Shown piece after piece: positions 19,127-41,266 of a stretch of DNA of 43,332 nt; the first letter of the stretch is position 1; each line of letters begins with the position of its first letter. The notes under the pieces were generated by a model, which saw only the letters and a list, made by a program, of their open reading frames with translations, searched no databases and was not told the DNA's origin. The translations under genes were made by a program, and so were the position numbers. The stretch is from Myxococcales bacterium. Lineage in GTDB: Bacteria > Myxococcota_A > Polyangia > Palsa-1104. The stretch covers positions 226 to 43,557 of the forward strand of contig PNAM01000032.1 of NCBI GenBank assembly GCA_003170275.1, written 5' to 3'.

Positions 19127-22100
19127 ATGGGCGTGTTGCGGCTGGCGAAAAAGCTTCTAAAAATCGCCATGTGGGGAATGTCACTGTTCCTCGTCGCCTA
19201 CACGGTCGTCTACTACAAGTTCAACGATGCGGTGCTCGCGGACTTCATTTCGGACCGCGTGAATCGGGTCGAGCGCGGCAACTTCCGGCTCGGGATGGCG
19301 CACTTTCCATACTGGGGCGGGCTGTTCTCGGTGCTCTTCGACACGCGCGCGCATGTGGTCGGCGGGGACTTCGAGCTGCACGACCCCGACGGCAACCTGG
19401 TGCTGGCGGCGCCGTTCGCCGAGACCGACGCCTACCTGCAAGAGCTCGTGGTGTCGCTGGCCAAGTATGCGTTCACGCAAAAGTTCCACCTGAACCTGCA
19501 CTTCGCCAACGGGCACGTGCCGCGCGGGCTGGCGGTGATCGCGCCGACCCGCTCGACCTGGGGCAGCGACAAGTCCGAGGTCAACCTGGTCGCGGCGATG
19601 AGCCCGAAGAGGCCCAACCCGCCGGGCGGCAACCCGGGCGGAGAGTTCCGCATCCAGGTCGACGGCGTGCACCTCGACAACATCGACTTCGGGATCGGCT
19701 TTCCCAACCGTGAGGGGCGCGCGTCGTGGTGGGGCCGCGTGGTCGACTCCGAGGGCCAGGCGGATCTGGTCTACTCGTCGCGCGCGCAGCTCGAGAGCTC
19801 CGCCGGGCCGTACTTCTTCTTCAAGGTGCACGATCTGAGCGGCGCGCACGCCGAGCTGCGCCTGGGCGAGTACCTGATCCCTCTCGATTCGCTCAGACTC
19901 GCCGAGTTCGGGCCGAACGGCGACAAGCGCGAGGACATCGTGTTTCGCGCCACCACGTCCTCCGACGGCGCACCGATCGAGATCGAGGGCGCCCTGACCA
20001 ACAGCTACTCCAAGCAGCCGGGCGTCGCCATGTCGCTGGCGTTTCAGCACGCGGCGGGGCTGATGAAGATGCTGCCCAAGCCGCTGCCGGCGTGGCTGGG
20101 CGGCGATCCGCGCGGCAAGATTCGCTTCGACGGGCCGTTCACGCACGTGGTCATCGACGGCGCGGTCGAGGACGCCGAGGCCAACGTGCAGGGCCTCAAG
20201 ATCACCAAGCTCGGCAGCCGCCTGCACCTCGACGGCGAGCTGCTCACGCTCGAGCCGGAGGGCAACGTGGCCGGCGGGCGCGCGTCGGCCACCGCCGAGG
20301 TCGGGCTCGAGCGGCTGCCGTGGTGGCGCGCGCGGGTGCAGGTCAAGCACATCGATCCGGCGCTCATCCCGCAGGTCCCCGCGCCGCTCAAGGCGACGTT
20401 GGCCGGGCGGTTGGACGCGTCGCTGCGGATCGGCGGCAGCCTGGTGGCCAAGGACGTCGACACCATCTACGCGCAGGCGATCGAGGCCGAGCTCGAGCGC
20501 GCGCACCCGGGCCGGCTGCCGAAGCGCATCAAGCTGACCGGCGGCCTCGACTGGGCGCCGACGCGCGTCGAGCTCAAGAACCTGCGCGCCGACGGCGACG
20601 GGCTCGAGGTGTCGGCCAACGGCCAGGTCGATCCGCGCGACGGGCGGCTGGCCACCAATTTGCGCATCGACAGCAAGAAGGGCGCGAGCTGGCTCGATCA
20701 CGTCGGCGCGCCGCGCGGCCTCAAGGTCGGCGACGCGCACGCGACCGGCCTGCTGACGGGCACGCTCGGGCGGCCGGAGCTCGGCGCGCACGTGGCCATC
20801 TCGCAGGTGAGCTTTCGCGATCGCCTGGCCGAGAAGCTCGAGGCCGACGTGAAGCTGCACCACGGCATCCTGCGCGTCGAGAACCTGACCGGCGACGCGC
20901 TGGCGGCGACGCTCACCGGCGAGGGCGAGTTCGATCTGTTCCAGGACGGCGACGTGCTGCGGCTCAAGGCCGAGCCGACGCTCCAGCTGCGCGTGGCCGG
21001 GCGCGGGGTCAGCATCGCCAAGGCCACCGGGTGGGACGGCGTCGAGGGCGCGGCCGACGTGGCGCTCGACGTCGAGGGGCCGATCAAGGATCCGCGCGGC
21101 GCGATGACCCTCTCGCTCCCCAACTTCTCCATCAAGGGCGACCCGTACGAGAACGGCCGGCTGCACGTCGCGCTCGGCAACGGCGGCGCCGAGATCAAAC
21201 AGCTCAAGCTCACGCGCCATCGCGGCGGCACGCTCACCGGCTCGGGGCGCGTCGGCTGGGACGGCGCGCTCGAGCTGCAGCTCAAGCCGCACGACTTCCC
21301 GCTGGTGGCGATCCCCGCCATCTCGACCCTGCCGGTGGCGCTGGCCGGCACGCTCTCGGGAGACGTCGAGCTGAGCGGCGACGTCGACCACCTCGATCTC
21401 GGCGGGCAGATCTCACTGTTCGCCTTCAAGGTGCGCGACGTGCTGCTCGGCGACGGCAACCTCAAGCTCACGCCGGGCGCCGACGCGATCGCCATCAAGG
21501 GCAACCTGTTCAACAAGGTGCAGGTCGACGGCTACCTGACGCTGTTCCCCAAGTTCACCGTCGCCGGCTCGCTCAAGTTCAAGGACGTGGCGCTGGAAAA
21601 GATCTTGCCGGAGATGAAGAAGCTGGCCGAGGTGAGCGGCACCACCTCGGGCGAGGCGCGCATCACCTTCGACGCCGCCTCGGGCCTCACCTTCGCCGCG
21701 CTCACGCTCGACAAGCTAGCGATCTCGTTCGCCGGCACCGAAGAGGACGGCCGCAAGCGCACGCTGGTGGTGCACAACCAGGATCCGGTCAAGCTCTCCA
21801 CCGACGGGACCGTGCTGCGCGTCGATCGCTGCCACATGGTCTCGCCGCAGTTCGACTTCCACGTGATCGGCCAGGTCTCGGAGCACGACTCGAACGTGCA
21901 TCTGCACGGCGACATCGATCTGGTGCTGCTCGAATATTTCTTCCGCGGCGCGTTCGAGCACACACACGGCAAGTCGAACCTCGATCTGACCATCCAGGGC
22001 GATCTGTCGCGGCCCAAGATCGCCGGCTGGCTGAACATGGTCAACGCCGAGCTGCAGCCGCGCGGGCTCGAGCACCTGATCTCGGTGCCGACCGGGCGCG

Positions 22101-23620
22101 TGCTGTTCGCCGAGGACAAGATGACGCTCTCCAACTTCAGCCTGGTGATGGACAAGCAGCTCGCCCGCGCGTCGGGGTGGATCGAGCTCAAGCAGTGGGT
22201 GCCGAACCACATCTTCGGCGACGTGAGCGGCGAGCTGTCGCCGCGCCTCCTCCAGTGGTTTCTCGGCGAGCACGTCGGTGAGGCGTCGGGACAGCTCTCG
22301 GTGAACGTGCACTTCGCCGGCACCTGGACCAACCCCGAGTGGGTGGGCTCGGCCGAGATCAAGGGCGCGCAGGGCAAGCTGCGCAACTGGCCGCACGACC
22401 TGGGCATCCAGTCGGGCACGCTGAAGTTCTCGAACAGCGACATCGTGCTCGGCTGCCCGCGCGCGCGCGGCGTGCCCGGCTGCAAGACCATCGCCGGCAG
22501 CATCGACGGCAACCCGCTGTCGATCGACGGCACGGTGACGGTGGGCGGCCCGACCACCTTCCGCGCGCTCGATCTGCGCCTCGATGGCACCGAGCTGCGC
22601 CAGGCCTCGGAGGAGTACGCGATCACGTTCTCGCCGCACGTGGTGATCCAGGGCGACGGCGAGCGGCTGCGCGCCGAGGGCTCGATCGACATCAACGAGG
22701 GGCGCTACTTCCAGAACTTCGACTTCATCAACCAGGTGATCTTGAAGCCGCGCACCGTCGAGAAACAGGTCCCGTTCTGGACCGGCATCGCGCGGCTCGA
22801 GACCATGTCGCTGCAGGTGCACGCGCAGTCGACCGGGCCGATGTACATCAAGAACAACGTCGCCGACATCCAGATGCAGACCCAGCTCGACATCTCGGGC
22901 ACGCTGTCGGAGCCGCGCCTGAACGGCAACATCCACGTCGAGGAGGGCGGCCGGTTCACCATCCCCGGCTTCCGCGTGGCGTTCGACTCCGACGCGGGCA
23001 ACATCCTGTTCGACCCCGACAAGAAGCTGCCCGATCAGACGCCGACGCTCGACGTGGGCGGCAACGGCCTGTTCGTCGACGAGGACGACAACTCGCACAA
23101 GCTGTTCCTGCGCCTGATCGGCACCATCTCGAACCTGCAGCTCAAGCTGTGGTCGCAGGAGGGCTGGGATCAGGTCACCGTGCTGTCGGTGCTGTTCACC
23201 GGCAAGACGCCCGAGCAGATCCGCCGGCTGGGCGCAGGCGATCTGAACGGGCGCGGGGGCGGCGGCACCTCCGCGTCGGAGGGCGCGATCAAGACGCTCA
23301 CCGGGTACGGCGTGGGGCAGGTGGTGGCGGATCCGCTGCAGCGCTGGCTCAAGCTCGACTCCTCGAGCGTGGAGTTCGGCCCGTCCTCGTTCGACGTGCG
23401 GTTTTGCAAGCGCTTCTCCAGGCACCTCAAGACCTGCGGCTACGGCGAGGTCGGGTTCACCACCTCGAGCAAGGTCGAGGGCAGCCTGCAGCTGCGCGTC
23501 TCCGACTGGGTGTCGGCGGCCGGCAAGGTCGAGTATCTCAACCAGGGCATCGACACCTCGCAGGATTCCCTCACCCGCGGCCGGCTGGAGCTCAAGCTGC
23601 AGATCCCGCTCGGGTACTGA
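19127..23620 (+). CDS. tamB: TamB/YhdP-class AsmA-like bridge protein
   Basis: 1497 residues. An N-terminal signal anchor (IAMWGMSLFLVAYTVVYY) is followed by a very long stretch of short alternating beta-strands with the repeat pattern of AsmA/TamB lipid-groove proteins. The C-terminal DUF490 (TamB) region is clear: RFTIPGFRVAFDSDAGNILF, KLWSQEGWDQVTVLSVLFTGKTPEQ, and a final SLQLRVSDWVSAAGKVEYL beta hairpin. TamB spans the periplasm from inner membrane to the Omp85 partner; family members serve in autotransporter or outer-membrane protein insertion and in bulk phospholipid flow to the outer membrane. It stands directly before the Omp85 gene (22 bp), the standard tam pairing although here tamB comes first. 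It starts 38 bp after the kinase gene; AAGG precedes the ATG. Confidence 0.95.
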   Translation: MGVLRLAKKLLKIAMWGMSLFLVAYTVVYYKFNDAVLADFISDRVNRVERGNFRLGMAHFPYWGGLFSVLFDTRAHVVGGDFELHDPDGNLVLAAPFAETDAYLQELVVSLAKYAFTQKFHLNLHFANGHVPRGLAVIAPTRSTWGSDKSEVNLVAAMSPKRPNPPGGNPGGEFRIQVDGVHLDNIDFGIGFPNREGRASWWGRVVDSEGQADLVYSSRAQLESSAGPYFFFKVHDLSGAHAELRLGEYLIPLDSLRLAEFGPNGDKREDIVFRATTSSDGAPIEIEGALTNSYSKQPGVAMSLAFQHAAGLMKMLPKPLPAWLGGDPRGKIRFDGPFTHVVIDGAVEDAEANVQGLKITKLGSRLHLDGELLTLEPEGNVAGGRASATAEVGLERLPWWRARVQVKHIDPALIPQVPAPLKATLAGRLDASLRIGGSLVAKDVDTIYAQAIEAELERAHPGRLPKRIKLTGGLDWAPTRVELKNLRADGDGLEVSANGQVDPRDGRLATNLRIDSKKGASWLDHVGAPRGLKVGDAHATGLLTGTLGRPELGAHVAISQVSFRDRLAEKLEADVKLHHGILRVENLTGDALAATLTGEGEFDLFQDGDVLRLKAEPTLQLRVAGRGVSIAKATGWDGVEGAADVALDVEGPIKDPRGAMTLSLPNFSIKGDPYENGRLHVALGNGGAEIKQLKLTRHRGGTLTGSGRVGWDGALELQLKPHDFPLVAIPAISTLPVALAGTLSGDVELSGDVDHLDLGGQISLFAFKVRDVLLGDGNLKLTPGADAIAIKGNLFNKVQVDGYLTLFPKFTVAGSLKFKDVALEKILPEMKKLAEVSGTTSGEARITFDAASGLTFAALTLDKLAISFAGTEEDGRKRTLVVHNQDPVKLSTDGTVLRVDRCHMVSPQFDFHVIGQVSEHDSNVHLHGDIDLVLLEYFFRGAFEHTHGKSNLDLTIQGDLSRPKIAGWLNMVNAELQPRGLEHLISVPTGRVLFAEDKMTLSNFSLVMDKQLARASGWIELKQWVPNHIFGDVSGELSPRLLQWFLGEHVGEASGQLSVNVHFAGTWTNPEWVGSAEIKGAQGKLRNWPHDLGIQSGTLKFSNSDIVLGCPRARGVPGCKTIAGSIDGNPLSIDGTVTVGGPTTFRALDLRLDGTELRQASEEYAITFSPHVVIQGDGERLRAEGSIDINEGRYFQNFDFINQVILKPRTVEKQVPFWTGIARLETMSLQVHAQSTGPMYIKNNVADIQMQTQLDISGTLSEPRLNGNIHVEEGGRFTIPGFRVAFDSDAGNILFDPDKKLPDQTPTLDVGGNGLFVDEDDNSHKLFLRLIGTISNLQLKLWSQEGWDQVTVLSVLFTGKTPEQIRRLGAGDLNGRGGGGTSASEGAIKTLTGYGVGQVVADPLQRWLKLDSSSVEFGPSSFDVRFCKRFSRHLKTCGYGEVGFTTSSKVEGSLQLRVSDWVSAAGKVEYLNQGIDTSQDSLTRGRLELKLQIPLGY

Positions 23621-23642
23621 TATGCTCGCCGACGCCGCCTGA

Positions 23643-26600
23643 ATGCGCCGGCTCCTCACATTCCTCGCAGTCCTCTTCTTCGCCGCCGCGGCGCAGGCGG
23701 AGGGCAGGCGCGTCGAATCGGTGGAGATCGACGGCGCGGTGGTCGACGACAAGCAGAAGCTCTTGCGCTTCCTCGGCCTCAAGCCGGGCGTGCAGTTCGA
23801 CGCGCAGCTGCAGCAGCGCATCGGCGACGACCTCGACAAGCAGCTCGGCTACCACCTGGTGCGCGTGCTCATCGACGAGGGCAAACAGGGCATCAAGCTG
23901 CGGCTGCAGGTGGTGCCGGCGCGCGTGGTGCGCATCATCCGCGTGCACGGCAACTGGCCGCTGTTCGACGACGAGGTGATCCGCCACCTGACCGTGCGCT
24001 CCGGCACGCGCCTGGTGGCCGACGAGGTGCTCGCGCAGTTCCTCCTCGACGAGGGCAAGCGCGTGCACGACTTTCTGACGCGCGACGGATACTTCAACAA
24101 CAAGGTGACGGTGATCCCGCGCAAGGGACCGCGCGAGGAGTGGGTCGACATCGACGTCGATATCGAGCTCAACGGTTGGTACAAGCTGGCCGCGGTGCAG
24201 GTCGACGGCAACACCGCGGTGACCTCGCAGGAGGTGTTCGACTCGTTCGAGCACTGCTGTTTTCGCTGGGGGCGTTTTTCGCTGACGCAGATGCGCGAGG
24301 ACTCGCGCGCGGCGGAGAAGGCGCTGCGCGAGCGAGGCTATCCGTCGGCGCGCGTGATTCCGGAGTTCGACTTCGGCTCGGACGCGGACCAGAAGAGCCA
24401 CCGGGTGGTGCTGCCGATCAAGGTGGTGGAGAAGCGGCGCGTGGATGTGAGCTTCGTCGGCAACCGCACGCTCGGCGACAAGGAAATGCGCGAGCAGCTC
24501 ACCATCTTCTCCGCCGGCGCGTACGACGACATCGAGCTGGCCGAGAGCGCCAAGGCGATCCAGCGCGACTACCAGAAGCACGGCTTCTTCGAGGCGCGCG
24601 TCACCTTTTCGCGGCGCAAGAAGAGCGCCACCGTCGAGGAGATCACGTTTCTGGTGGTCGAGGGGCCGGAGCTCAAGGTGCGCGGCGTGGACTTCTCGTC
24701 GGAGTCGGGCGCGGCGCTGCACTTCGGCCAGGACGAGATCCGCGTCAAGGGGGGCGTGGAGACCAAGGTGTTCCCGCGGCTCGGGCTGGTGGGCCTGGGC
24801 GAGGGCGGCTACATCACCACCGTTCAGCTGCAGCAGGACGCCGATCGGATCGTCGACTTCTACCGGTCGCGCGGCTTTCCCGAGGTCAAGGCGCGGCCCG
24901 AGGTGGCGCGCGATCCGGCGGCGTTCGGCTCGCTCGGCGCGCTCGGCGCGGAGACCGCCGGCGGCAACGAGAACAAGAATGATCTGTTCGTGCGCTTCTT
25001 CGTCGAGGAGGGCCGGCAGGAGCTGGTCGAGCACCTCGAGATCGCGTTCGTCGGCCCGCACAAGAAGACCGAGAAGGACGTGCTGCGCGTGCTCAAGCTG
25101 GTCAACGCCCAGCCCTACACGCCGTCGGCGCTGCACGACGATCAGCAGCGCGTGGCCATCTTGTACAAGTCGTCCGCGCGCCCGTACGTGCTCGCCAAGT
25201 GGGATCGCTCGGGCTGGAACGACGCGCACGATCGGATCGTGATCCGCGTCGACATCTCGGAGGGACCCGAGGTGCGCTTCGGTGAGATCCTGGTGCGCGG
25301 CAACTTCAAGACCGCCGACCGGGTGATCCTGGCCGACCTGCCGTTCAAGCCCGGCGATCCGTTCGACTTCAAGCGCGTGGAGGAGGGCGAGCGAAATCTA
25401 CAAACGCACTTCGTGTTCACCTCGGCGCGCGTGGTGCCGCTGCTCTCGAATCTGGAGCAGACCGACGAGGAGAACTATCGCAACCCGGTGCCGGTGGTGG
25501 TCACCGTGCAGGAGCGCTACCTCGAGCGCTTCGGCTCGGCCGCGCTAGCCGCGGGCATCGCCACCGACAAGCTGCCCAACTACGCGTACGTCTCGGCGGG
25601 ATGGCTGTGGTCGAACTTCGCCGGGCTCGGCTCGCAGCTCGAGCTGCGCGCGGACTTCGGCTTCACCTTCACGCCGCCCTACGTGTGGGGCGCGAGCTTG
25701 CGTTACACCGATCTGCGCGCGTTCGGGCCGGGGTGGCGCTTCGATCTCACCGGCTTCTACCGGCAGGAGGTCACCAATCGCTTCGGCCCGGTCACCACCT
25801 ACGGCGCCGCGGTGGCGCTCACCCGTTACCTCACGCCGGCGCTGCGCACCTATCTGCGCTACGACAACTACCAGGCGCAGGTCTCGGTGCCTTTTTTGCG
25901 CGTCGACGGGCCGCACGACATCACCACCGTCCTCGACACCACGCACACCGCCAAGTTCACGCTCGGCCTGGTGTGGGATCGCCGCGTGGGCGCCGACGGG
26001 CTACCCAACCCGCTGCTCCCCTACAAGGGCTGGCTCCTCTCGGCCTCGCTCGGCTACGCGTTTCCCTCGTCGGTGGACACGCCGTTCGTCAACTTCTGGT
26101 CCTCCGAGCACCACTTCCTGGTCGCCTCGGGTCAGGCGCTCGGCATCCTGCCGTTCAAGATCCGCGGCGCGCCGTTCTCGATCATCACCAACCTGCGCTA
26201 CGATGAGGGCATCCCGATCGACGAGCCGGCCCTGCCGCTGGTGGAGCGCTTCTTCGCCGGCGGCGACACCACCACGCGCGGCTACGATCCGGATACGCTC
26301 AAGAGCGAGATCATCCGCGCCGACGTCACGCCGCTGTCAGGCGGGCAGGCCTTTCGCGTAGTCCCGCAAGGCGGCAACATTCGCGTCTTGTCGACGGTGG
26401 AGGTGCAGTTCCCGATCGCCAAGACCTTCATCGGGCTGCCCTGGCCGTGGGTGGGCGCGCTGTTCTGGGACGTGGGCGCGATCATCGACTCGCCCGCGCT
26501 GGTGCAGAAGGACGACTTCAAGCACGCGATCGGCGTGTCCCTGTTGCGCATCCTCACGCCGGTCGGGCCGCTGTCGCTCGAGTACGCCTATCCGCTCACG

Positions 26601-26699
26601 CAGAGCCTCGCCGAGGAGCGCTGGAAGACCAATCCGTGGTATTCGCACTATCCGGGTCGCATCCACTTCAACTGGGGCATCCCGCTCTCGAGGCTCTAA
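23643..26699 (+). CDS. tamA: Omp85-family outer membrane assembly protein (TamA/BamA type) with about seven POTRA-like repeats
   Basis: 1018 residues. A Sec signal (LLTFLAVLFFAAAAQA) is cleaved before EGRRVESVEIDG. Seven segments start with a POTRA-like beta strand: VESVEIDG, VVRIIRVHGNWP, LAAVQVDGNTAV, RVDVSFVGNRTL, LKVRGVDFSSES, VEHLEIAFVGPH and VRFGEILVRGNF. They fill about residues 20-620. The remainder is a 16-strand-type barrel with FAGGDTTTRGYDPDTL, the conserved (V)RG(F/Y) loop motif, and ends in strand IHFNWGIPLSRL. E. coli BamA has five POTRA domains and TamA three, so this one is unusually long. Placement after tamB supports TamA function; a BamA paralogue is the alternative. A six-codon mini-ORF (23622-23642) ends TGA directly before this ATG. 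Confidence 0.93.
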   Translation: MRRLLTFLAVLFFAAAAQAEGRRVESVEIDGAVVDDKQKLLRFLGLKPGVQFDAQLQQRIGDDLDKQLGYHLVRVLIDEGKQGIKLRLQVVPARVVRIIRVHGNWPLFDDEVIRHLTVRSGTRLVADEVLAQFLLDEGKRVHDFLTRDGYFNNKVTVIPRKGPREEWVDIDVDIELNGWYKLAAVQVDGNTAVTSQEVFDSFEHCCFRWGRFSLTQMREDSRAAEKALRERGYPSARVIPEFDFGSDADQKSHRVVLPIKVVEKRRVDVSFVGNRTLGDKEMREQLTIFSAGAYDDIELAESAKAIQRDYQKHGFFEARVTFSRRKKSATVEEITFLVVEGPELKVRGVDFSSESGAALHFGQDEIRVKGGVETKVFPRLGLVGLGEGGYITTVQLQQDADRIVDFYRSRGFPEVKARPEVARDPAAFGSLGALGAETAGGNENKNDLFVRFFVEEGRQELVEHLEIAFVGPHKKTEKDVLRVLKLVNAQPYTPSALHDDQQRVAILYKSSARPYVLAKWDRSGWNDAHDRIVIRVDISEGPEVRFGEILVRGNFKTADRVILADLPFKPGDPFDFKRVEEGERNLQTHFVFTSARVVPLLSNLEQTDEENYRNPVPVVVTVQERYLERFGSAALAAGIATDKLPNYAYVSAGWLWSNFAGLGSQLELRADFGFTFTPPYVWGASLRYTDLRAFGPGWRFDLTGFYRQEVTNRFGPVTTYGAAVALTRYLTPALRTYLRYDNYQAQVSVPFLRVDGPHDITTVLDTTHTAKFTLGLVWDRRVGADGLPNPLLPYKGWLLSASLGYAFPSSVDTPFVNFWSSEHHFLVASGQALGILPFKIRGAPFSIITNLRYDEGIPIDEPALPLVERFFAGGDTTTRGYDPDTLKSEIIRADVTPLSGGQAFRVVPQGGNIRVLSTVEVQFPIAKTFIGLPWPWVGALFWDVGAIIDSPALVQKDDFKHAIGVSLLRILTPVGPLSLEYAYPLTQSLAEERWKTNPWYSHYPGRIHFNWGIPLSRL

Positions 26700-33884: not shown

Positions 33885-35762
33885 ATGGCCAAGACCCCCG
33901 ATCTGCGCTCGATCAAGGACAAAGCCGCCAAGGCGATCGAGAAGCGCAACTACGCCAAGGCTGCGGAGTTGTACTTGGAGATCGCCCAGCACGAGGACGA
34001 TCCCGACTGGCGCCAGCGAGCCGGCGAGGCCCTGCGCAAGGCCAACAAGAACCCGGAGGCGGCGGAGCAATTCACCATGGCCGCCGAGGGTTATGCGCGC
34101 GACGGCTTCCTGCTCAAGGCGATCGCGGTGTGCAAGGTGGTCCTACAAATTGATCCTCGTCACACCGCGACCCAGAGCATGCTCGCCGGGCTGTACGCGC
34201 AACGAGACGGCTCTACGCGACTCGCGAACGGCGAAGTGGCGTTGGTCACCGACTCGATGCGCCGGCGACCCGAGCCGGTTCAGGCGACGCCGACGCCGCC
34301 GCTGCTTCCGCAGCAGAAGGTCGCGCCCGTTCCGACGCCGATGGAGGAGCTGGCCAGCCCGCCGGCGCCCCGCCCGGCGCGCGAGCACCTCGACGCCTTG
34401 CCGGTCTCGTCGCGGCCGCGCGTCGATGATCTGGCGATGGACACGGTCTCGCTGTCCGACGCGCCGGGCACGCCGGCGGGGCCGCTCGACGCGCTGCCGC
34501 TCGCGAACATGCTCAACAGCCGTCGCAGCCAACAGTTTCCTGCGGTCAAACCCGGGCAGTATGGCGGCAATCTCGACGGTGCGGCCTACGAGATCTCGCT
34601 CGACGAAGGCGACCTGCACGACGCCTTCAACGCTGAGCCCGAGGGTCCGCAGCTCGAAGCGCTGCCGCTCGCGCGCGACGAATCGGCGCCAATCGAGATC
34701 AGCATGGAGGCCGAGCCGACCCGCCCACCGTCGCCGCTGCCCGCCGACGAGCTCGATTTCTCCGACGTGATGGACGAGCCGCGCCGCCCGGCGCCCGCGC
34801 CGATTCCCGTCGCACAGCCGCCGCGCGCGGCGCCGCCGCCACCGCCGCGCGTGGTGGTGCCGCCACCGCCGCGCGTGGTGGTGCCGCCGCCGCCGCCCGT
34901 GGACGAGCTCGATTTCTCGTCGGTGATGGAAGAAGCGGTTACCGCGCCAAGGGCCGCGCCGCCGCTGCCGCGCATCCCACTATTCTCCTCGCTCACCGCT
35001 GCCGAGCTGATGCAGGTCATCCAGGGCGTCGAGGTGCGCGAGTTCGCGGCCGGCGAGACCATCGTCAAGCAGGGCGACCGCGGCGTGGCGCTGTACGTGA
35101 TCGTGCGCGGTCAGGTCGAGGTGGTGCTCGAGGGCCCGCCGCGCCGCGAGGTGGCGACGCTCACCGAGGGCGCGTTCTTCGGCGAGCTCGCGCTGCTCAC
35201 CGATTTCCCGCGCTCGGCCACCGTGATCGCGCAGGAAGACACGCAGGTGCTCGAGATCTCGCGCGAGCTGATCGCCAGTGTGATCGCCGACTCGCCCGAG
35301 GTCCTCAAGGTCCTGCTCCGTTTCTTCCGCGATCGCATGCTCGACCGGATGCTCTCGAGCTCCCAGGTGTTCTCGAAGTTCAGCCCCGAAGACGCGCGCG
35401 CGATCGTGCAGCGCTTCAAGTTCCTCGAGCTCGATCCGCGCATGCGCGTGGTGAGCGAGGGCGAGCGGGCCCCGGGCCTGTTCCTGCTCTTGTGCGGCGA
35501 GGCCTACGTGGTGCAGGGCCACAAGAAGATCGCGCAGATCGTTCCAGGCGACATGTTCGGCGAGATGTCGCTCCTGAACCGCGGGCCGGCGATGGCGAGC
35601 ATCGACACCGAGACCAAGTGCTGGGTGCTCGAGCTGGTGCGCCAGGACTTCCAGGAGATCATGCTGACCTATCCGCAGCTCCTCGAGTTCGTGAGCGATC
35701 TCGCCGACCAGCGGCGCGCGAGCAACATCCAGGGCCCGGACGATCGCGTAGAATTCCTCTAG
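33885..35762 (+). CDS. TPR protein with two cyclic nucleotide-binding domains
   Basis: 625 residues from ATG 33885. An N-terminal TPR-like part (10-95; KRNYAKAAELYLEIAQHEDD) is followed by a long Pro/Ala linker with PPPPRVVV repeats and two copies of DELDFSxVM(D/E)E (about 287-298 and 339-350). CNBD1 (about 363-485) has an intact phosphate-binding cassette, FGELALLTDFPRSATV, with the Arg that binds the cyclic phosphate. CNBD2 (about 494-620) reads FGEMSLLNRGPAMAS and lacks that Arg, so it probably does not bind. No DNA-binding or catalytic domain is seen. A scaffold that changes partner binding with cAMP, cGMP or a related ligand fits best. It lies two bases before msrP, so shared transcription is likely. 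Confidence 0.9.
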   Translation: MAKTPDLRSIKDKAAKAIEKRNYAKAAELYLEIAQHEDDPDWRQRAGEALRKANKNPEAAEQFTMAAEGYARDGFLLKAIAVCKVVLQIDPRHTATQSMLAGLYAQRDGSTRLANGEVALVTDSMRRRPEPVQATPTPPLLPQQKVAPVPTPMEELASPPAPRPAREHLDALPVSSRPRVDDLAMDTVSLSDAPGTPAGPLDALPLANMLNSRRSQQFPAVKPGQYGGNLDGAAYEISLDEGDLHDAFNAEPEGPQLEALPLARDESAPIEISMEAEPTRPPSPLPADELDFSDVMDEPRRPAPAPIPVAQPPRAAPPPPPRVVVPPPPRVVVPPPPPVDELDFSSVMEEAVTAPRAAPPLPRIPLFSSLTAAELMQVIQGVEVREFAAGETIVKQGDRGVALYVIVRGQVEVVLEGPPRREVATLTEGAFFGELALLTDFPRSATVIAQEDTQVLEISRELIASVIADSPEVLKVLLRFFRDRMLDRMLSSSQVFSKFSPEDARAIVQRFKFLELDPRMRVVSEGERAPGLFLLLCGEAYVVQGHKKIAQIVPGDMFGEMSLLNRGPAMASIDTETKCWVLELVRQDFQEIMLTYPQLLEFVSDLADQRRASNIQGPDDRVEFL

Positions 35763-35764
35763 CC

Positions 35765-36727
35765 ATGTCGATTCGGATTCGTCCGCGCTGGTACCTGCCC
35801 GAACGCGAGGTCACGCCCGAGTCGCAGTACCTCGGTCGTCGCGACTTCCTCAAGGGAGTGGGCGCCGGGCTGTTGTCGGTCGGCGCGGCGTCCGCCGGTC
35901 TGCTCGGCTGCATGCGCTCCGGTTATACCGCGGCGCCGCCGACGCATCTGTTGACCGGTGGGGCCAGGCGCAACCCGAAGTACACGCTCGATCGGCCGCT
36001 CACCGACGAGAAGGTGGCCGCCACCTACAACAACTACTACGAGTTCACCACCGACAAGGAAGGGGTCGCCGACGCGGCCAAGGACTTCAAGACGCTGCCC
36101 TGGTCGATCGAGGTGGGCGGCCTGTGCGCCAAGCCGCGCAAATGGGACCTCACCGAGCTGGTCAAGGCGATGCCCATCGAAGAGCGCGTGTACCGGCACC
36201 GCTGCGTGGAGGCCTGGTCGATGGCAGTGCCGTGGACCGGCTTCCAGCTCTCGCACCTGCTCAAGTTGGCCGAGCCGCAATCGACCGCGCGGTTCGTTCG
36301 CCTGGTCAGCGTCGATCGCCCCAACGAGATGATCGGGATGCGCGAGCAGAAGTGGTACCCGTGGCCCTACTTCGAGGGCCTCCGGTTGGACGAGGCGATG
36401 AACGAGCTCGCGTTCCTGGTCACCGGCATCTACGGGCACGACCTGCCGCCGCAGCACGGCGCGCCCCTGCGGCTCGCGATGCCCTGGAAGTACGGCTACA
36501 AGAGCCCGAAGGCGATCGTGAAGATCGAGCTCTCCGCGACGCAGCCGCCGACGTTCTGGAATTCGCTGTCGGCCGCCGAGTATGGTTTCGAATCGAACGT
36601 GGACCCGAAGAAGCCGCACCCGCGCTGGTCGCAAGCCCACGAGCGGGTGATTGGTTCGGGCGAGCGGCGCGCCACGCTCCTATATAATGGATACGCGGAG
36701 TACGTGGCCTCGCTCTACAAGGGCTGA
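35765..36727 (+). CDS. msrP: MsrP/YedY-type molybdopterin methionine sulfoxide reductase, Tat lipoprotein-like
   Basis: 320 residues, close to E. coli MsrP (334). The Tat motif RRDFLKG (residues 25-31) is followed by a hydrophobic stretch ending LLGC with Cys49, a good lipobox that E. coli MsrP lacks. The molybdenum ligand is Cys147 in YRHRCVEAWSMAVPW. Further family blocks are EGLRLDEAMNEL, YGHDLPPQHGAP, MPWKYGYKSPKAIV, HPRWSQAHERVIGSG and the end GYAEYVASLYKG. MsrP repairs methionine sulfoxide in periplasmic proteins with electrons from the membrane heme protein MsrQ. No msrQ lies next to it, so the electron donor is elsewhere or different. It is followed after 2 bp by a small gene. Confidence 0.95.
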   Translation: MSIRIRPRWYLPEREVTPESQYLGRRDFLKGVGAGLLSVGAASAGLLGCMRSGYTAAPPTHLLTGGARRNPKYTLDRPLTDEKVAATYNNYYEFTTDKEGVADAAKDFKTLPWSIEVGGLCAKPRKWDLTELVKAMPIEERVYRHRCVEAWSMAVPWTGFQLSHLLKLAEPQSTARFVRLVSVDRPNEMIGMREQKWYPWPYFEGLRLDEAMNELAFLVTGIYGHDLPPQHGAPLRLAMPWKYGYKSPKAIVKIELSATQPPTFWNSLSAAEYGFESNVDPKKPHPRWSQAHERVIGSGERRATLLYNGYAEYVASLYKG

Positions 36728-37107: not shown

Positions 37108-37228
37108 TCTGCAGAGTCTCTGTCCTGCCACGCGACACCACCTTCAACCGTCCTGTGCGAAGACACGCGCACGCCAAGCGCGCGAAACTCTGTGGTCACC
37201 CGACCCGCAGCAACAGGCTACCCACTCG

Positions 37229-37291
37229 TTATCCACAATTCATGTAGCGACTCACAGCACATCACAGAGGAGCCCACAGGGTTTTCCACAG
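37229..37291 (+). promoter_or_regulatory. Phased CACAG array with DnaA-box-like 9-mers, upstream of structured RNA copy 1
   Basis: TTATCCACA at 37229-37237 is a perfect DnaA-box consensus, and TTTTCCACA (37282-37290) differs at one position. Four CACAG motifs begin at 37253, 37263, 37275 and 37287 (spacing 10, 12, 12), on one helix face or nearly so. The same spacing is found before copy 2. The last motif lies 72 bp before the strongly conserved RNA core. It may be a binding array for an activator or DnaA; a promoter was not located. Confidence 0.55.
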
Positions 37292-37343
37292 GGATAACTG
37301 TCGAGAAAGATACGATCTCGACGAAGATCGGCGCTTTGATCCG

Positions 37344-38339
37344 GTTGGTACGGGCAGTGCAAAGTGATTGAATCCGTAAGAAGAAACGGTCGGCGGTCGA
37401 AGGGACCGCAGGGAATGAGCGGGCCTCGTCGCAGCGCAACTGGGGAAACTCAGAGGTGCTCGGCAGGCAGAAACCTCGAGCAGGTCGGCGGCGTCGGGAG
37501 ACGCAAGCCGGGCTTCTCACCGGCAACACGACGTAGGTTGGCGAAGAGTACGACTGCGACGGATTCTTCGCGAAGGCCATGGTCGGAAGAGGGCATGAGA
37601 GTGCTCTCGACGGTGGGAAGAGGGAAGACCTGGAGGAGGACGAAGCCCACGAGGGGAACGGGCGGCGCGTCGGGTAACACCGGCGTGCACGCAACGGACT
37701 CTCGGCATGGAGTAAAGCCCTGAGGGCGGGGCTGTGGGAGCTGGCGCGAACGGGCAACCGTTCGTAGGCGACTACAGCCAACCGACGAGAGGGCACGAGC
37801 CGGTGACGAACCGGTTCGGCTGTGCCGGGAGGGGAACACCCTGAAGGGTAGAACCCTGGACGCGGCAGCGGGGTGAAATAAACCCGCAAGGCCTGTAGCG
37901 GAGCAAACCGTCGAGGGCGTGCGAAACGCCGAGGACGGACAGCGTCGGGGATGGAAGCCCGATGCAAGACGCTGCAGGCTGATGTCGCGAAGAGGGAAGC
38001 CAACCCCGAGGAAGGAGCTCTGGACCGAGAGGATCCAGGGCGGGCACGGAACGGGAGGACTCTGTAGAGGCGTAAAGCTTACGAGAGGATGAACCCGGTT
38101 TCGCAAGACTCCGGGGGACGGCAGCCGGTGCAAACCGTTCTCTCCGCCAGAAATGGCGAGGGCACGACGGGAGTGGAGAACCAATCATCCACCAGCCGGT
38201 TGCATACAAGACTCTGAAAAGCAGCGAACCTCACGAGAGGCAACTTCACTGGCGGCGACGCCGGCGAAGAACCCCGCTCGAGCCTGAAGCCTTCGAAGGG
38301 GAGCACGCATCGCCCTGCAGTTCGCTTGGATCGCTGACC
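37344..38339 (+). ncRNA. Large structured non-coding RNA, copy 1 (about 996 nt)
   Basis: No conserved protein frame exists here, yet the sequence aligns end to end with 39109-40105. Hairpins are kept: GCGTC-ggga-GACGC (37491-37504), GAACGG-gcaa-CCGTTC, CAGCGTC with an inner CGGG/CCCG (37940-37974), CTGGA...TCCAG (38020-38038), GTAA-agc-TTAC (38072-38082), GGCG-gcga-CGCC (38251-38262) and a terminal CAG...CTG (38318-38336). Many loops are GNRA, which only makes sense for plus-strand RNA. A 77-nt block (37359-37435) is identical in both copies. No group II domain V or reverse transcriptase is evident. I do not recognise the family; it has the look of the giant ornate RNAs (OLE, GOLLD, ROOL). 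Confidence 0.75.
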
Positions 38340-38436
38340 CCGAGATGCGAGCACGAGCGCCGATATCGGCCTCGCGCTCGCTTTTCGCGTTCCGGATCTC
38401 GTCGGTTCCTCCGACGCTCTGTACTAAGCTCCGCTC

Positions 38437-38883
38437 ATGTCGCTCTTGATTCGCCCCGCGTTCGATTCGGATCGCGAGCTGGCCGCTCGTCTCCTCACCG
38501 CCCAACTCGTCGAGCACGATCTTCCAGCTGACGCGGCAGGCGTGGCGCGCGGCATCGAGCTGGCGCTCGCGCCTCATTCCCCCGCGTGGCTCCTGCTCGC
38601 GTTTCGCGGTGAGGAGCCGGTCGGGATCTTTCTCGCCAACTTGATCGTCAGCGTCGAAAAATCGGGTCATGCGTTGTGGGTCGAGGAGCTATACGTCGTG
38701 CCGTCCGCCCGGCGGGGCGGCGTGGCGCGCGCGATCCTCGCGCACGTCGTGGCGAAGGGACGCGAGCTCGGCGTGCGTGGGATCGATCTCGAAGTCGTGC
38801 CCACCCAGGCCGCTGCGTTCGCGCTCTATCGTGCGCTCGGATTCAAAGACGTGAACCGCCAGCGGATGTCGTTCGAGCTCTGA
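38437..38883 (+). CDS. GNAT-family N-acetyltransferase
   Basis: 148 residues. MSLLIRPAFDSDRELAARLL is the usual first strand and helix of the fold. LWVEELYVVPSARRGGVARAIL holds motif A with the acetyl-CoA-binding R-x-x-G-x-A loop (RRGGVA), followed by VRGIDLEVVPTQAAAFALYRALGF, the standard motif B. It would acetylate an amine from acetyl-CoA; the substrate is unknown. The gene sits alone between the two structured RNA copies, same strand, with 97 bp before it. No ribosome-binding site was seen at the ATG. Its position raises the possibility that it belongs to the same mobile or functional unit as the RNAs. Confidence 0.88.
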   Translation: MSLLIRPAFDSDRELAARLLTAQLVEHDLPADAAGVARGIELALAPHSPAWLLLAFRGEEPVGIFLANLIVSVEKSGHALWVEELYVVPSARRGGVARAILAHVVAKGRELGVRGIDLEVVPTQAAAFALYRALGFKDVNRQRMSFEL

Positions 38884-38984
38884 AGGCCGACCGAACTTCC
38901 GACACGCCCAAAACTGTCGCAAGCCGCTACACACAGCGGCCAACTCTTCTGAATCACGAGGCCTGATTGATCTCGCTACACAGG

Positions 38985-39057
38985 TTATCCATCACATATC
39001 CACAAGAGCGTCCTAACTCACAGCAGTTCACAGAGGAGTCCACAGGGTTTCACACAG
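38985..39057 (+). promoter_or_regulatory. Phased CACAG array with DnaA-box-like 9-mers, upstream of structured RNA copy 2
   Basis: TTATCCATC (38985-38993) and ATATCCACA (38996-39004) approximate the DnaA box. CACAG motifs begin at 39019, 39029, 39041 and 39053, again spaced 10, 12, 12. The flanks CAGAGGAGYCCACAGGGTTT match copy 1, and the core RNA block begins 71 bp after the last motif. The region between the array and the RNA is much less similar, so the array itself seems to be under selection. Confidence 0.55.
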
Positions 39058-39108
39058 ACTTAACTCATTGGAAACACGCAATTCACCGTCGCTGAGCAGT
39101 TTCGGCGC

Positions 39109-40105
39109 GTTGGTACGAGCGATGCAAAGTGATTGAATCCGTAAGAAGAAACGGTCGGCGGTCGAAGGGACCGCAGGGAATGAGCGGGCCTCGTCGCAGC
39201 ACTGCTGGGGCAACTCGGCGGTGGTCGGCAGGCAGGAACCTCGGGCAGGTCGGCGACCTCGAGAGAGGCAAGCCGGGCTCCAGACTGGCAACACGCTGTA
39301 GGCCGGCGAAGAGGACTCACGAAATCTTCGCCAAGGTCATGAGCGGAAGAGGGCATGAAGGTGCTCTCGACGGTGTGGAGAGGGAAAACCTGGAGGAGGA
39401 GCAAGCCCAGGAGGGAATCGGGCGGTGCGTCGGGTAACACTGGCGTAAGCGCAACGGACTCTTGGCACGGAGAAAGCCCTGAGGGCGGGGCTGTGGAAGC
39501 TGGCGCGGGCGGGCAACCGTTCGTAGGCGACTACAGCCAACCGACGAGAGGGCACGGACCGGTGAAGAATCGGTTCGGCTGTGCCGGGAGGGGAAATCCC
39601 TGAAGGGTGGAACCCTGGACGTGGCAGCGGGGTGAAATAAACCCGCAAGGCCGGTAGCGGATCAAACCGTCGAGGGCGTGCGAAACGCCGAGGACGGAAG
39701 GCGACGAGGCTGGGACCTCGTTGTAACGATGCCGCTGGCTGATGTCGCGATGAGGGACGGCAACCCCAAGGAAGGCGCTCGGAGACTGAAAGGTCTCGGG
39801 GCAGGTTTGGGACGGGAGCACTCTGAAGAGGCGTGAAGCGCACGAGAGGATGAACCCGGTTTCGAAAGAGACCGGGGGACGGCATCGGGAATGAAACCGT
39901 CAGTCCCGCCAGAAATGGCGAGGGCACGACGGGAGTGGGTAACCCAATAGGCGCCCACGAGCCCGGTGCATATCAAAACTCTGAAGCGTGGCGAACCTCA
40001 TGAGAGGCAGCCTTGGCGACGGTGACGTCGTCGAGGACCCCGCTCGAGCCTCGAACCTTCGAAGGGGAGCACGCATCGCCCTGCGGTACACTTGGACAGC
40101 CGACC
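39109..40105 (+). ncRNA. Large structured non-coding RNA, copy 2 (about 997 nt)
   Basis: Direct repeat of the element at 37344-38339 with the offset starting at 1765 bp and almost equal length. Differences preserve pairing: CCTC-gaga-GAGG (39257-39268) replaces a different stem, GAGAC...GTCTC (39782-39797) replaces CTGGA...TCCAG, ACGAGG...CCTCGT (39704-39721) replaces CGGG/CCCG, GTG...CAC (39833-39843) replaces GTAA/TTAC, GACG-gtga-CGTC (40018-40029) replaces GGCG-gcga-CGCC, and the last stem changes from CAG/CTG to CGG/CCG. GNRA loops exchange with other GNRA loops. The antisense open frames in both copies differ in length and frame and are judged spurious. Confidence 0.75.
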
Positions 40106-40117
40106 GTTTTTCGTTTT
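40084..40117 (+). terminator. Possible intrinsic terminator of RNA copy 2
   Basis: A weak stem (CGG...CCG/ACC around 40084-40105) is followed by CGTTTTTCGTTTTT. The T-runs fit Rho-independent termination of the structured RNA. Copy 1 has the matching stem but no T-run. Confidence 0.4.
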
Positions 40118-40168
40118 TCCCGCCTCATCGCTCCCGCGATGGAACCCGCCTTCGGCGCAAGGAAGGCT

Positions 40169-41266
40169 TCACCCCACCTCGACCACCAATGTCTGCACCG
40201 CGTTGTTTCCGTATCCATATCGATTGAAGCGGCACCATTCGGGCTGACGATTGCCGGCGGCGTCGAGCGCGCGGGCGCGAATCGTGTGGCGGCCGGGCTC
40301 CTCGATGCGGCAGGTGAGCTTCCAGGCGCGCCAGGCGTAACGGCCGAGCGGCTCGTCGAGCTGCGCCGCCTGCCACTGCTCGGAGCCATCGATCGAGATC
40401 TCCACGCCCGCCACCTCGGCGCTCCCCGACCACGCCCAGCCGCGGATCGGCAGGCTGCCGCGCCGCAGGATCGCGCCCGGCTCGGGCCGCGTCACGATCG
40501 ACTTGCAGCGCATCTCCGCGACCGGCTCGGTCGGCTGATCGTCCCCGTGGGCGTACACGTAGCGGTCGTCCTGAAACCACCCCTCGAACGGATCGCGCAG
40601 CACCTCGATGCGCTCGAGCCACTTCACGCTGGCCATCCCGTACCAGCCGGGAACGATCAAGCGTAGCGGCGCGCCGTGGCGTTCCGGAATCGGCGCGCCG
40701 TTCATCTCCAGCGCGAGCAGGGTGTCCGGATCGAGCGCCTTTTCGATCGGCAGTGCGCGCTGGAACGCGATCCCGTGCGGTGCGCCCTCCCCGTCGGGAG
40801 TCCCGCGATCGGCGCCTTCGAAGGCGACCTGCACCGCGTCGGGCGCGAGGCCCGCCCGCTCGAGCACCGCGGCGAGCGACACCCCGGCCCAGCGCGCGGT
40901 CGACAACGCGCCTTCGTGCCAGGGCTCGCCGGGCGGTAGGGGTGACATGTCGAGCCGGTTGTTGCCGGCGCACTCGAGCGTCACCGTGAGCTCGCGCCGG
41001 CCGAACGTCTTGAGTTGATCGAGCGTGAGCCGCAGCGCGCGTTTCACCTCGCCGCCGATTTGGAGACGATGGGCACGCCGCAGCGCCGGCACGCCAAAGT
41101 GCGCGCGCACGAAGTGCGGCTCGGTGATCTCCGCACGCAGCGCGGGGCGCGCAGCCTCGGCGTTGAAGGGGTCGGCCTTGACGATGATCAGTCGATGACC
41201 GGGCTGTATCAGGCTGGTTTCGGTGTCCTTCTCCACACTAATCAGGAGTGCAAGTTGACGGCCCAT
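40169..41266 (-). CDS. Sulfite oxidase-family molybdopterin enzyme without signal peptide
   Basis: 365 residues. The Mo-cofactor domain contains Cys99 in LECAGNNR, preceded by FVRAHFGVP and followed by WAGVSLAAVL, GIAFQRALPIEKAL and GAPLRLIVPGWYGMASVKWL, all characteristic of the SUOX/SorA family. The C-terminal Mo-co dimerisation domain (IRGWAWSGSAEVAGVEISIDG to FNRYGYGNNAVQ) is complete. No Tat or Sec signal and no heme b5 domain are present, so it would be cytoplasmic unless exported with a partner. Sulfite or another small oxoanion is the probable substrate. A GTG a few codons in (VEKDTE) is an alternative start. Only 37 bp separate it from divergent purF. Confidence 0.9.
   Translation of the reverse strand: MGRQLALLISVEKDTETSLIQPGHRLIIVKADPFNAEAARPALRAEITEPHFVRAHFGVPALRRAHRLQIGGEVKRALRLTLDQLKTFGRRELTVTLECAGNNRLDMSPLPPGEPWHEGALSTARWAGVSLAAVLERAGLAPDAVQVAFEGADRGTPDGEGAPHGIAFQRALPIEKALDPDTLLALEMNGAPIPERHGAPLRLIVPGWYGMASVKWLERIEVLRDPFEGWFQDDRYVYAHGDDQPTEPVAEMRCKSIVTRPEPGAILRRGSLPIRGWAWSGSAEVAGVEISIDGSEQWQAAQLDEPLGRYAWRAWKLTCRIEEPGRHTIRARALDAAGNRQPEWCRFNRYGYGNNAVQTLVVEVG

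Follow-up and report, generated by a model that had tools for sequence, protein, structure and literature searches.

Two tandem copies of an element in a Myxococcales genome each almost certainly encode a large folded non-coding RNA, as judged from homologues and covariation. They lie in a stretch of 43,332 nucleotides (assembly GCA_003170275.1, contig PNAM01000032.1, positions 226 to 43,557 of the forward strand), referred to as the window. Copy A (37344–38340, 997 bases) and copy B (39110–40105, 996 bases) can be aligned over their whole length with 84% identity, and both are U-poor (12–13% T) and G-rich (37–38%). By nucleotide search and by a covariance model described below, they are the sole copies found in the 8.17-Mb genome. 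The initial annotation of this DNA had read 37344–40105 as two near-equal tandem copies of a new large structured RNA. The copies bear this out; the span additionally holds a GNAT acetyltransferase gene (38437–38883, plus strand) between them. The annotated extent needs correction at the 5' edges, where 37344–37371 and 39110–39136 are promoter and lie outside the predicted transcripts. The RNA is placed at 37372–38340 in copy A and 39137–40105 in copy B, both on the plus strand and each of ~969 nt; for copy A the 5' end is predicted from the promoter and the 3' end is the limit of homology. Our analysis adds a sigma-54 promoter, a phylum-wide distribution and a repeated A.A/G.G module.

Protein coding was rejected. 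By codon phase, the 165 substitutions between A and B divide into 57, 53 and 55, only one of the 10 indels is a multiple of three in length, and stops occur in every plus frame of each of 22 aligned copies, in line with the absence of a common protein frame remarked on earlier. On the minus strand of these 22 copies, the longest open runs reach 99–291 amino acids, which U-poor DNA would give. Since the codon phase is missing and the indels are non-triplet, minus-strand coding is unlikely too. The plus strand, which had been proposed as the transcribed one, behaves as the RNA strand: paired columns contain 664 G-U against 154 A-C combinations.

The close-copy alignment contains A, B and 20 homologues with a mean identity of 60%. 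Its consensus comprises 270 pairs in 53 helices, fragments of 1–3 bp counted, and 200 of the pairs show double-sided changes. One helix falls in the promoter and has no covariation, as expected for a DNA signal. Covariation was assessed against a null that preserves phylogeny, by a custom script that follows the idea of R-scape and is not R-scape itself. In the structure-restricted test, 30 of the 270 pairs were significant and none with slid partners. In the fairest test, 7 sequences (families f1 and f3) supplied the structure and the 15 others (f11 and f14) served to test it, within an alignment built from all 22 together. Here, 15 of 289 pairs reached E<0.05 (slid controls 0) and 66 pairs reached p<0.01 (slid controls 1–7). 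Ten of the top 50 column pairs, among 536,130, belonged to the structure, where 0.027 were expected.

The two window copies were also compared on a structure drawn from the 20 homologues without them. Sixteen of its 276 pairs have changed on both sides between A and B and are still paired (slid 0–3), which, taken as a whole, supports compensatory change of the kind described in the initial annotation; 49 of the 276 are non-standard in A or B.

The predicted structure consists of five domains and a terminal hairpin, all on the plus strand, with coordinates given for copy A. Domain 1 (37392–37468) is the least conserved and has two helices, in which 7 of 13 pairs show double-sided changes. Domains 2 to 5 follow consecutively, each closed by 4 bp, a 3×3 internal loop and a further 4–6 bp. 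The inner helix has 4 bp in domain 2 (37474–37639), 5 bp in domain 3 (37645–37850, with one bulge in the outer 4 bp), 6 bp in domain 4 (37854–37996) and 5 bp in domain 5 (38004–38301). The 3' terminal hairpin (38315–38336) has 9 bp, 4 of them with double-sided changes. The earlier claim that hairpin loops exchange within the GNRA class holds for three loops, at 37495 (21 of 22 copies), 38149 (20 of 22) and 38254 (22 of 22); the other 15 hairpin loops are mostly not GNRA.

The covariance model of domain 4, R1, was built from 16 sequences on 37845–38018 and relatives, and it matches domain 4 of copy B (39610–39779) at E 4.5e-36, copy B itself being among the building sequences. The phylum set contains 79 copies, which are the 84 R1 matches minus the 5 weakest (<31 bits). 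In this set, 23 of 14,706 column pairs were significant. Of these, 20 are canonical, 2 are homopurine and 1 is of another kind, and 19 belong to the 37-pair model. A sequence-only MAFFT alignment gave 16 significant pairs (15 canonical, 1 homopurine), and a simulated null, with one alignment each time, gave none. Over all 84 matches, in an alignment fitted to the structure, 93.5% of cells pair against 40–46% when slid. Covariation among homologues, named in the initial annotation as a check on the RNA, is significant under a phylogeny-preserving null. The significant pair outside the canonical and homopurine classes (A2 columns 25/34, E 0.002) lies in the UGAAAYAR loop at 37874–37881. It is non-significant in the sequence-only alignment and is perhaps a contact within the loop.

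No known RNA family accounts for the copies, and this explanation was rejected. The initial annotation had named no family. Against the 4227 covariance models of Rfam 15, among which we take OLE, GOLLD, ROOL and the intron models to be present, the whole window gave no match at gathering score, and 37200–40200 gave none at E up to 5, group I and II introns included. In 20 homologous loci at E up to 0.1, the sole hit was mir-4743 (E 0.07), far below its gathering score. With significant covariation, no Rfam match and no coding frame kept, the proposal of a new large structured RNA stands. The RNA exceeds 500 nt, is intergenic and non-coding and carries extensive covarying structure, and by these features it would belong to the large ornate bacterial RNAs. 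No earlier description of a large Myxococcota RNA was found in the literature searched, to which most subscription papers did not belong, and three papers (PMC11109978, PMC8632094, PMC2864571) gave no mention of the Myxococcota names queried.

The RNA is distributed across the phylum. Of 96 genomes, 18 gave matches in a nucleotide search, some of them short; this count includes the own genome. A profile search lengthened many of these to full length, and full-length relatives occur across the host class, Polyangia. R1 searches ran within Myxococcota. They found the domain in 27 of 317 class genomes (E≤0.01; 12 of the 178 of high quality) and in 69 of 377 sampled phylum genomes (38 of 235), again counting the own genome; the weakest matches among the 69 score only 31–36 bits. 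Up to 6 matches occur per genome, and 23 of the 69 positive genomes have two or more. A strict pattern search of named genome contigs yielded 15 stretches, all metagenome-assembled, whose titles (Myxococcales 9, Kofleriaceae 3, Deltaproteobacteria 3) identify them as Myxococcota. In other classes, some copies keep the element order, such as L126 (profile positions 52–974) and L127 (36–989), some contain insertions, and many are mere short matches.

The 3×3 loops that close domains 2 to 5 recur elsewhere in the structure. The loops at the domain bases are 3×3 in 21–22 of 22 copies, and nine such loops occur in total, each 3×3 in 15–22 of 22 copies. They were picked by eye from the predicted structure, and a tenth candidate (2×3) did not fit and was dropped. 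Of 198 loop instances, 189 are 3×3, and A.A or G.G makes up 364 of their 378 outer mismatches; 2000 shuffles gave a mean of 328 and a maximum of 341. Phylum-wide, the count covers the two loops of domain 4; the other loops were counted in the 22 copies. For the domain-4 arm, 78 of 79 copies entered the count, and 155 of their 156 outer mismatches are of the A.A or G.G kind (at most 120 in shuffles); for the domain-4 base, 67 of 79 copies gave 113 of 134 (at most 83 in shuffles). In the model-fitted alignment, each of the two outer pairs of the arm reaches significance on the tree test (E 0.002 and 0.03). Judged from these alignments, the nine loops are a covarying non-canonical module whose outer A.A and G.G pairs swap in concert. 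Single covarying G-G/A-A homopurine pairs were predicted earlier in riboswitches (PMC2258182), and we met no description of nine homopurine-pair loops in one RNA in the literature searched. The nine-fold module provides a testable structural rule, which is nearly exceptionless in one loop across the phylum.

Upstream of each copy, we found a sigma-54 (-24/-12) element on the plus strand. In copy A it is TGGTACGGGCAGTGCA (37346–37361), a GG-N10-GC element with 10 of 12 consensus matches and a predicted start at ~37372; in copy B it is TGGTACGAGCGATGCA (39111–39126), with a predicted start at ~39137. The TGG-N10-GC before each RNA has the form of TGGCACG-N4-TTGC, which we take to be the sigma-54 consensus. 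All 23 close copies, from four families, carry an element of at least 9/12 at the matching place; L095 is cut off at a contig end. At 10/12 or better, the element lies 250–1100 bases before domain 4 in 28 of 67 loci (16 of 18 close, 12 of 49 distant). As controls, the reverse strand gave 1 of 67, letter shuffling gave 2.7% of regions, and sequence lying further upstream gave 0.04 per 850 bases. The own genome encodes RpoN (PF04552, E 1.4e-63), and a sigma-70 promoter was looked for and none was found. Sigma-54 control of copies A and B is very probable on the basis of these elements. Such a promoter type predicts when the RNA is made, namely with sigma-54 and an activator.

Further upstream, copy A has TTATCCACA (37229–37237) and four CACAG boxes starting at 37253, 37263, 37275 and 37287 with spacers of 5, 7 and 7. 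The whole region (37229–37291, plus strand) is a candidate enhancer for a sigma-54 activator. Copy B is preceded by a CACAG array as a sequence pattern (39019–39057, plus strand). Several f1 copies, A and B included, have four CACAG-like boxes at 10–12 base spacing, and the exact three-box pattern occurs in the own genome at the two copies only. Among the 23 close copies, 17 have TTRTNCACA within 300 nt upstream; among 2010 random windows, 22 contain it. It precedes the element by 83–84 bases in 12 of the 15 f11/f14 copies and by 63–64 bases in four f1 copies; in copy A it lies at 117, unlike either distance. The motif resembles a DnaA box. However, CACA recurs at helical spacing and at fixed distances from the -24 element, and an activator site fits better, a DnaA role being less likely. 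These sites could serve as bait for the activator and offer an experimental handle. In some other classes (L155, L157 and L158), palindromes like TGGGAA-N6-TTCCCA, found by eye, stand upstream of the sigma-54 element in place of CACAG, as if the activator had been swapped. One divergent subfamily within a single genus (L089, L090, L093) has a different 5' region in which the sigma-54 element was not found.

What such an RNA does is approached by analogy. Because no neighbour gene is shared near more than 10 of the 67 loci (11 of 32 in the wider-loci clustering), it is likely to be a stand-alone RNA, and we infer an on-demand scaffold or self-assembling RNA. That it is driven by sigma-54 on demand and acts in trans as a structural scaffold is a proposal that could prove right or wrong with equal ease. 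An enhancer-binding activator would occupy the CACAG and TTRTNCACA sites and open the sigma-54 polymerase, and the RNA would be made under some signal only. The 3×3 modules between 4-bp helices may stack into long regular rods, which would pack against other RNA copies or dock several copies of one protein. The outcome would be a particle or platform, not an antisense regulator. More tentatively, we speculate on a phylum-wide RNA machine in which a sigma-54 switch and repeated A.A/G.G 3×3 blocks lead to rods that self-assemble into an RNA-only particle, a possibility that we would not expect to hold in full. If true, it would add a new class to the large RNAs, supply a recurrent module that is new and readable from sequence alone, and make this an ornate RNA whose inducible promoter is defined.

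Several results weigh against the scaffold proposal or against its parts. Its scaffold step is itself drawn by analogy. The all-pairs test on 22 copies, which is underpowered, gave only 2 of 540,280 pairs at E<0.05, both in the structure, so full-length support comes from the structure-restricted tests. Forty-five of the 270 consensus pairs are non-standard in A or B. Of the two homopurine outer pairs of the domain-4 arm, the sequence-only alignment leaves only one significant. At 10/12, the search gave no sigma-54 element ahead of 37 of the 49 distant copies, so its control is not universal or the distant 5' ends differ. Copy B lacks TTRTNCACA in the 300 upstream bases, as do both f3 copies. 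With up to one mismatch, the CACAG pattern occurs 3 times in the genome against 7 in the reversed control, showing no enrichment. No canonical or intrinsic terminator lies at the ends of either RNA; the scan gave a single intrinsic terminator, on the minus strand at 37313–37330, fewer than in shuffles.

The main rival to the scaffold is a protein sponge, which would titrate a regulatory protein by capturing a single copy of it on each 3×3 module, with sigma-54 as the signal input. CsrB-type RNAs, which titrate CsrA, are the model for this. Nine near-equivalent modules per RNA favor such a role, and the additional copies in 23 of 69 genomes would fit dosage. However, the repeat is an internal loop within a large conserved fold, where a sponge would need the repeats alone; domain 4 is conserved outside its 3×3 loops, and no partner gene is shared across loci. 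We consider the sponge rather doubtful.

A phage- or satellite-derived RNA of the GOLLD/ROOL sort, retained by the host, would agree with the size class, the ornate structure and the varying copy number, but it is improbable. Rfam gives no match above chance, and the chromosomal neighbours are shared within families. The window has no tRNA, and among 60 related loci 52 have none and 8 have one or two. No viral contig carries the domain-4 pattern in a search with one strict pattern; no family-based search for phage genes near the copies was made. Still less credit is due to a ribozyme or a degenerate self-splicing or mobile intron, which the size, ornateness, multiple copies and some GNRA loops would suit. 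The intron models do not match, in the close copies a conserved promoter precedes the RNA at a constant position, and no internal frame is kept, although many group II introns are without their own reverse transcriptase, and reverse transcriptases in the surroundings were not searched for. A cis-acting leader of the GNAT gene, which starts on the same strand 97 bases past copy A, is hardly credible, as copy B precedes a convergent gene (40169–41266, minus strand) and the downstream gene is not widely shared across loci.

As far as can be said by analogy, the RNA would work like OLE, GOLLD and ROOL while being a member of none by sequence or structure. The partner protein gene of OLE is OapA. 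We notice that our ~970-nt RNA differs from OLE in its host phylum (Myxococcota, not Bacillota), in lacking a cmscan match, in its sigma-54 element and nine A.A/G.G 3×3 modules, and in having no conserved adjacent partner gene, as counted at the 67 loci (OapA itself was not searched for). Like OLE, it is large, ornate and non-coding; OLE is reported to have ~600 nt and a precise function that is unknown (PMC9723947, PMC12054373, PMC12286853). GOLLD, often >800 nt, and ROOL are described in PMC12286853 as ornate RNAs of unknown function encoded in phages and prophages, often by tRNA islands. According to the same text, OLE, GOLLD and ROOL form RNA-only complexes, and few bacterial RNAs this large and conserved are known, their functions being poorly understood (PMC12286853). 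Our RNA shares the size class and ornate fold of GOLLD and ROOL, but it has no tRNA islands, no viral hit with the one strict pattern, and a sigma-54 element, and sequence and structure do not match. Sigma-54 promoters are usable by small RNAs such as GlmY and GlmZ. Those are also stand-alone non-coding RNAs, and the present RNA is likewise likely to be under sigma-54 and an activator; however, they are small base-pairing or decoy RNAs, in contrast to ~970 nt with a conserved multi-domain fold. The Pxr sRNA of Myxococcus is another non-coding RNA of Myxococcota, but it is small, with three predicted stem loops, and unlike our RNA in size and architecture (PMC5684412).

Some individual copies deserve mention. 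One genome (G319, for example L134–L137) has six R1 matches on six separate contigs. In a relative (G006), L099:2145–2425 is a shortened copy in which profile positions 64–165 are fused almost directly to 928–1107. Its sigma-54 element is retained (9/12; the copy is not among the 23 close ones) and CACAG sites were not seen. This copy may reflect decay, a mini-RNA or an assembly error.

Neighbour clustering, over 32 wide loci and over 67 loci, yields synteny at the family level only. In f11 and f14 (L070, L071, L074–L079, L083, L084, L088), a lipoprotein-like gene and in some cases an HD-domain gene lie near the RNA, and in f1 a gene for a cNMP-binding protein is among the recurring neighbours. 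Apart from the cNMP and TPR assignments, such names come from reading translations. Molybdopterin oxidoreductase and GNAT genes were not recognised among the shared neighbours, which were named from sequence only. Elsewhere in the window (19127–26699), a large gene whose TamB-like match is weak is followed by a BamA/TamA-like gene, both below curated cut-offs. The RNA pair itself is flanked by two genes with molybdopterin oxidoreductase domains, one at 35492–36727 and the other being the convergent gene after copy B.

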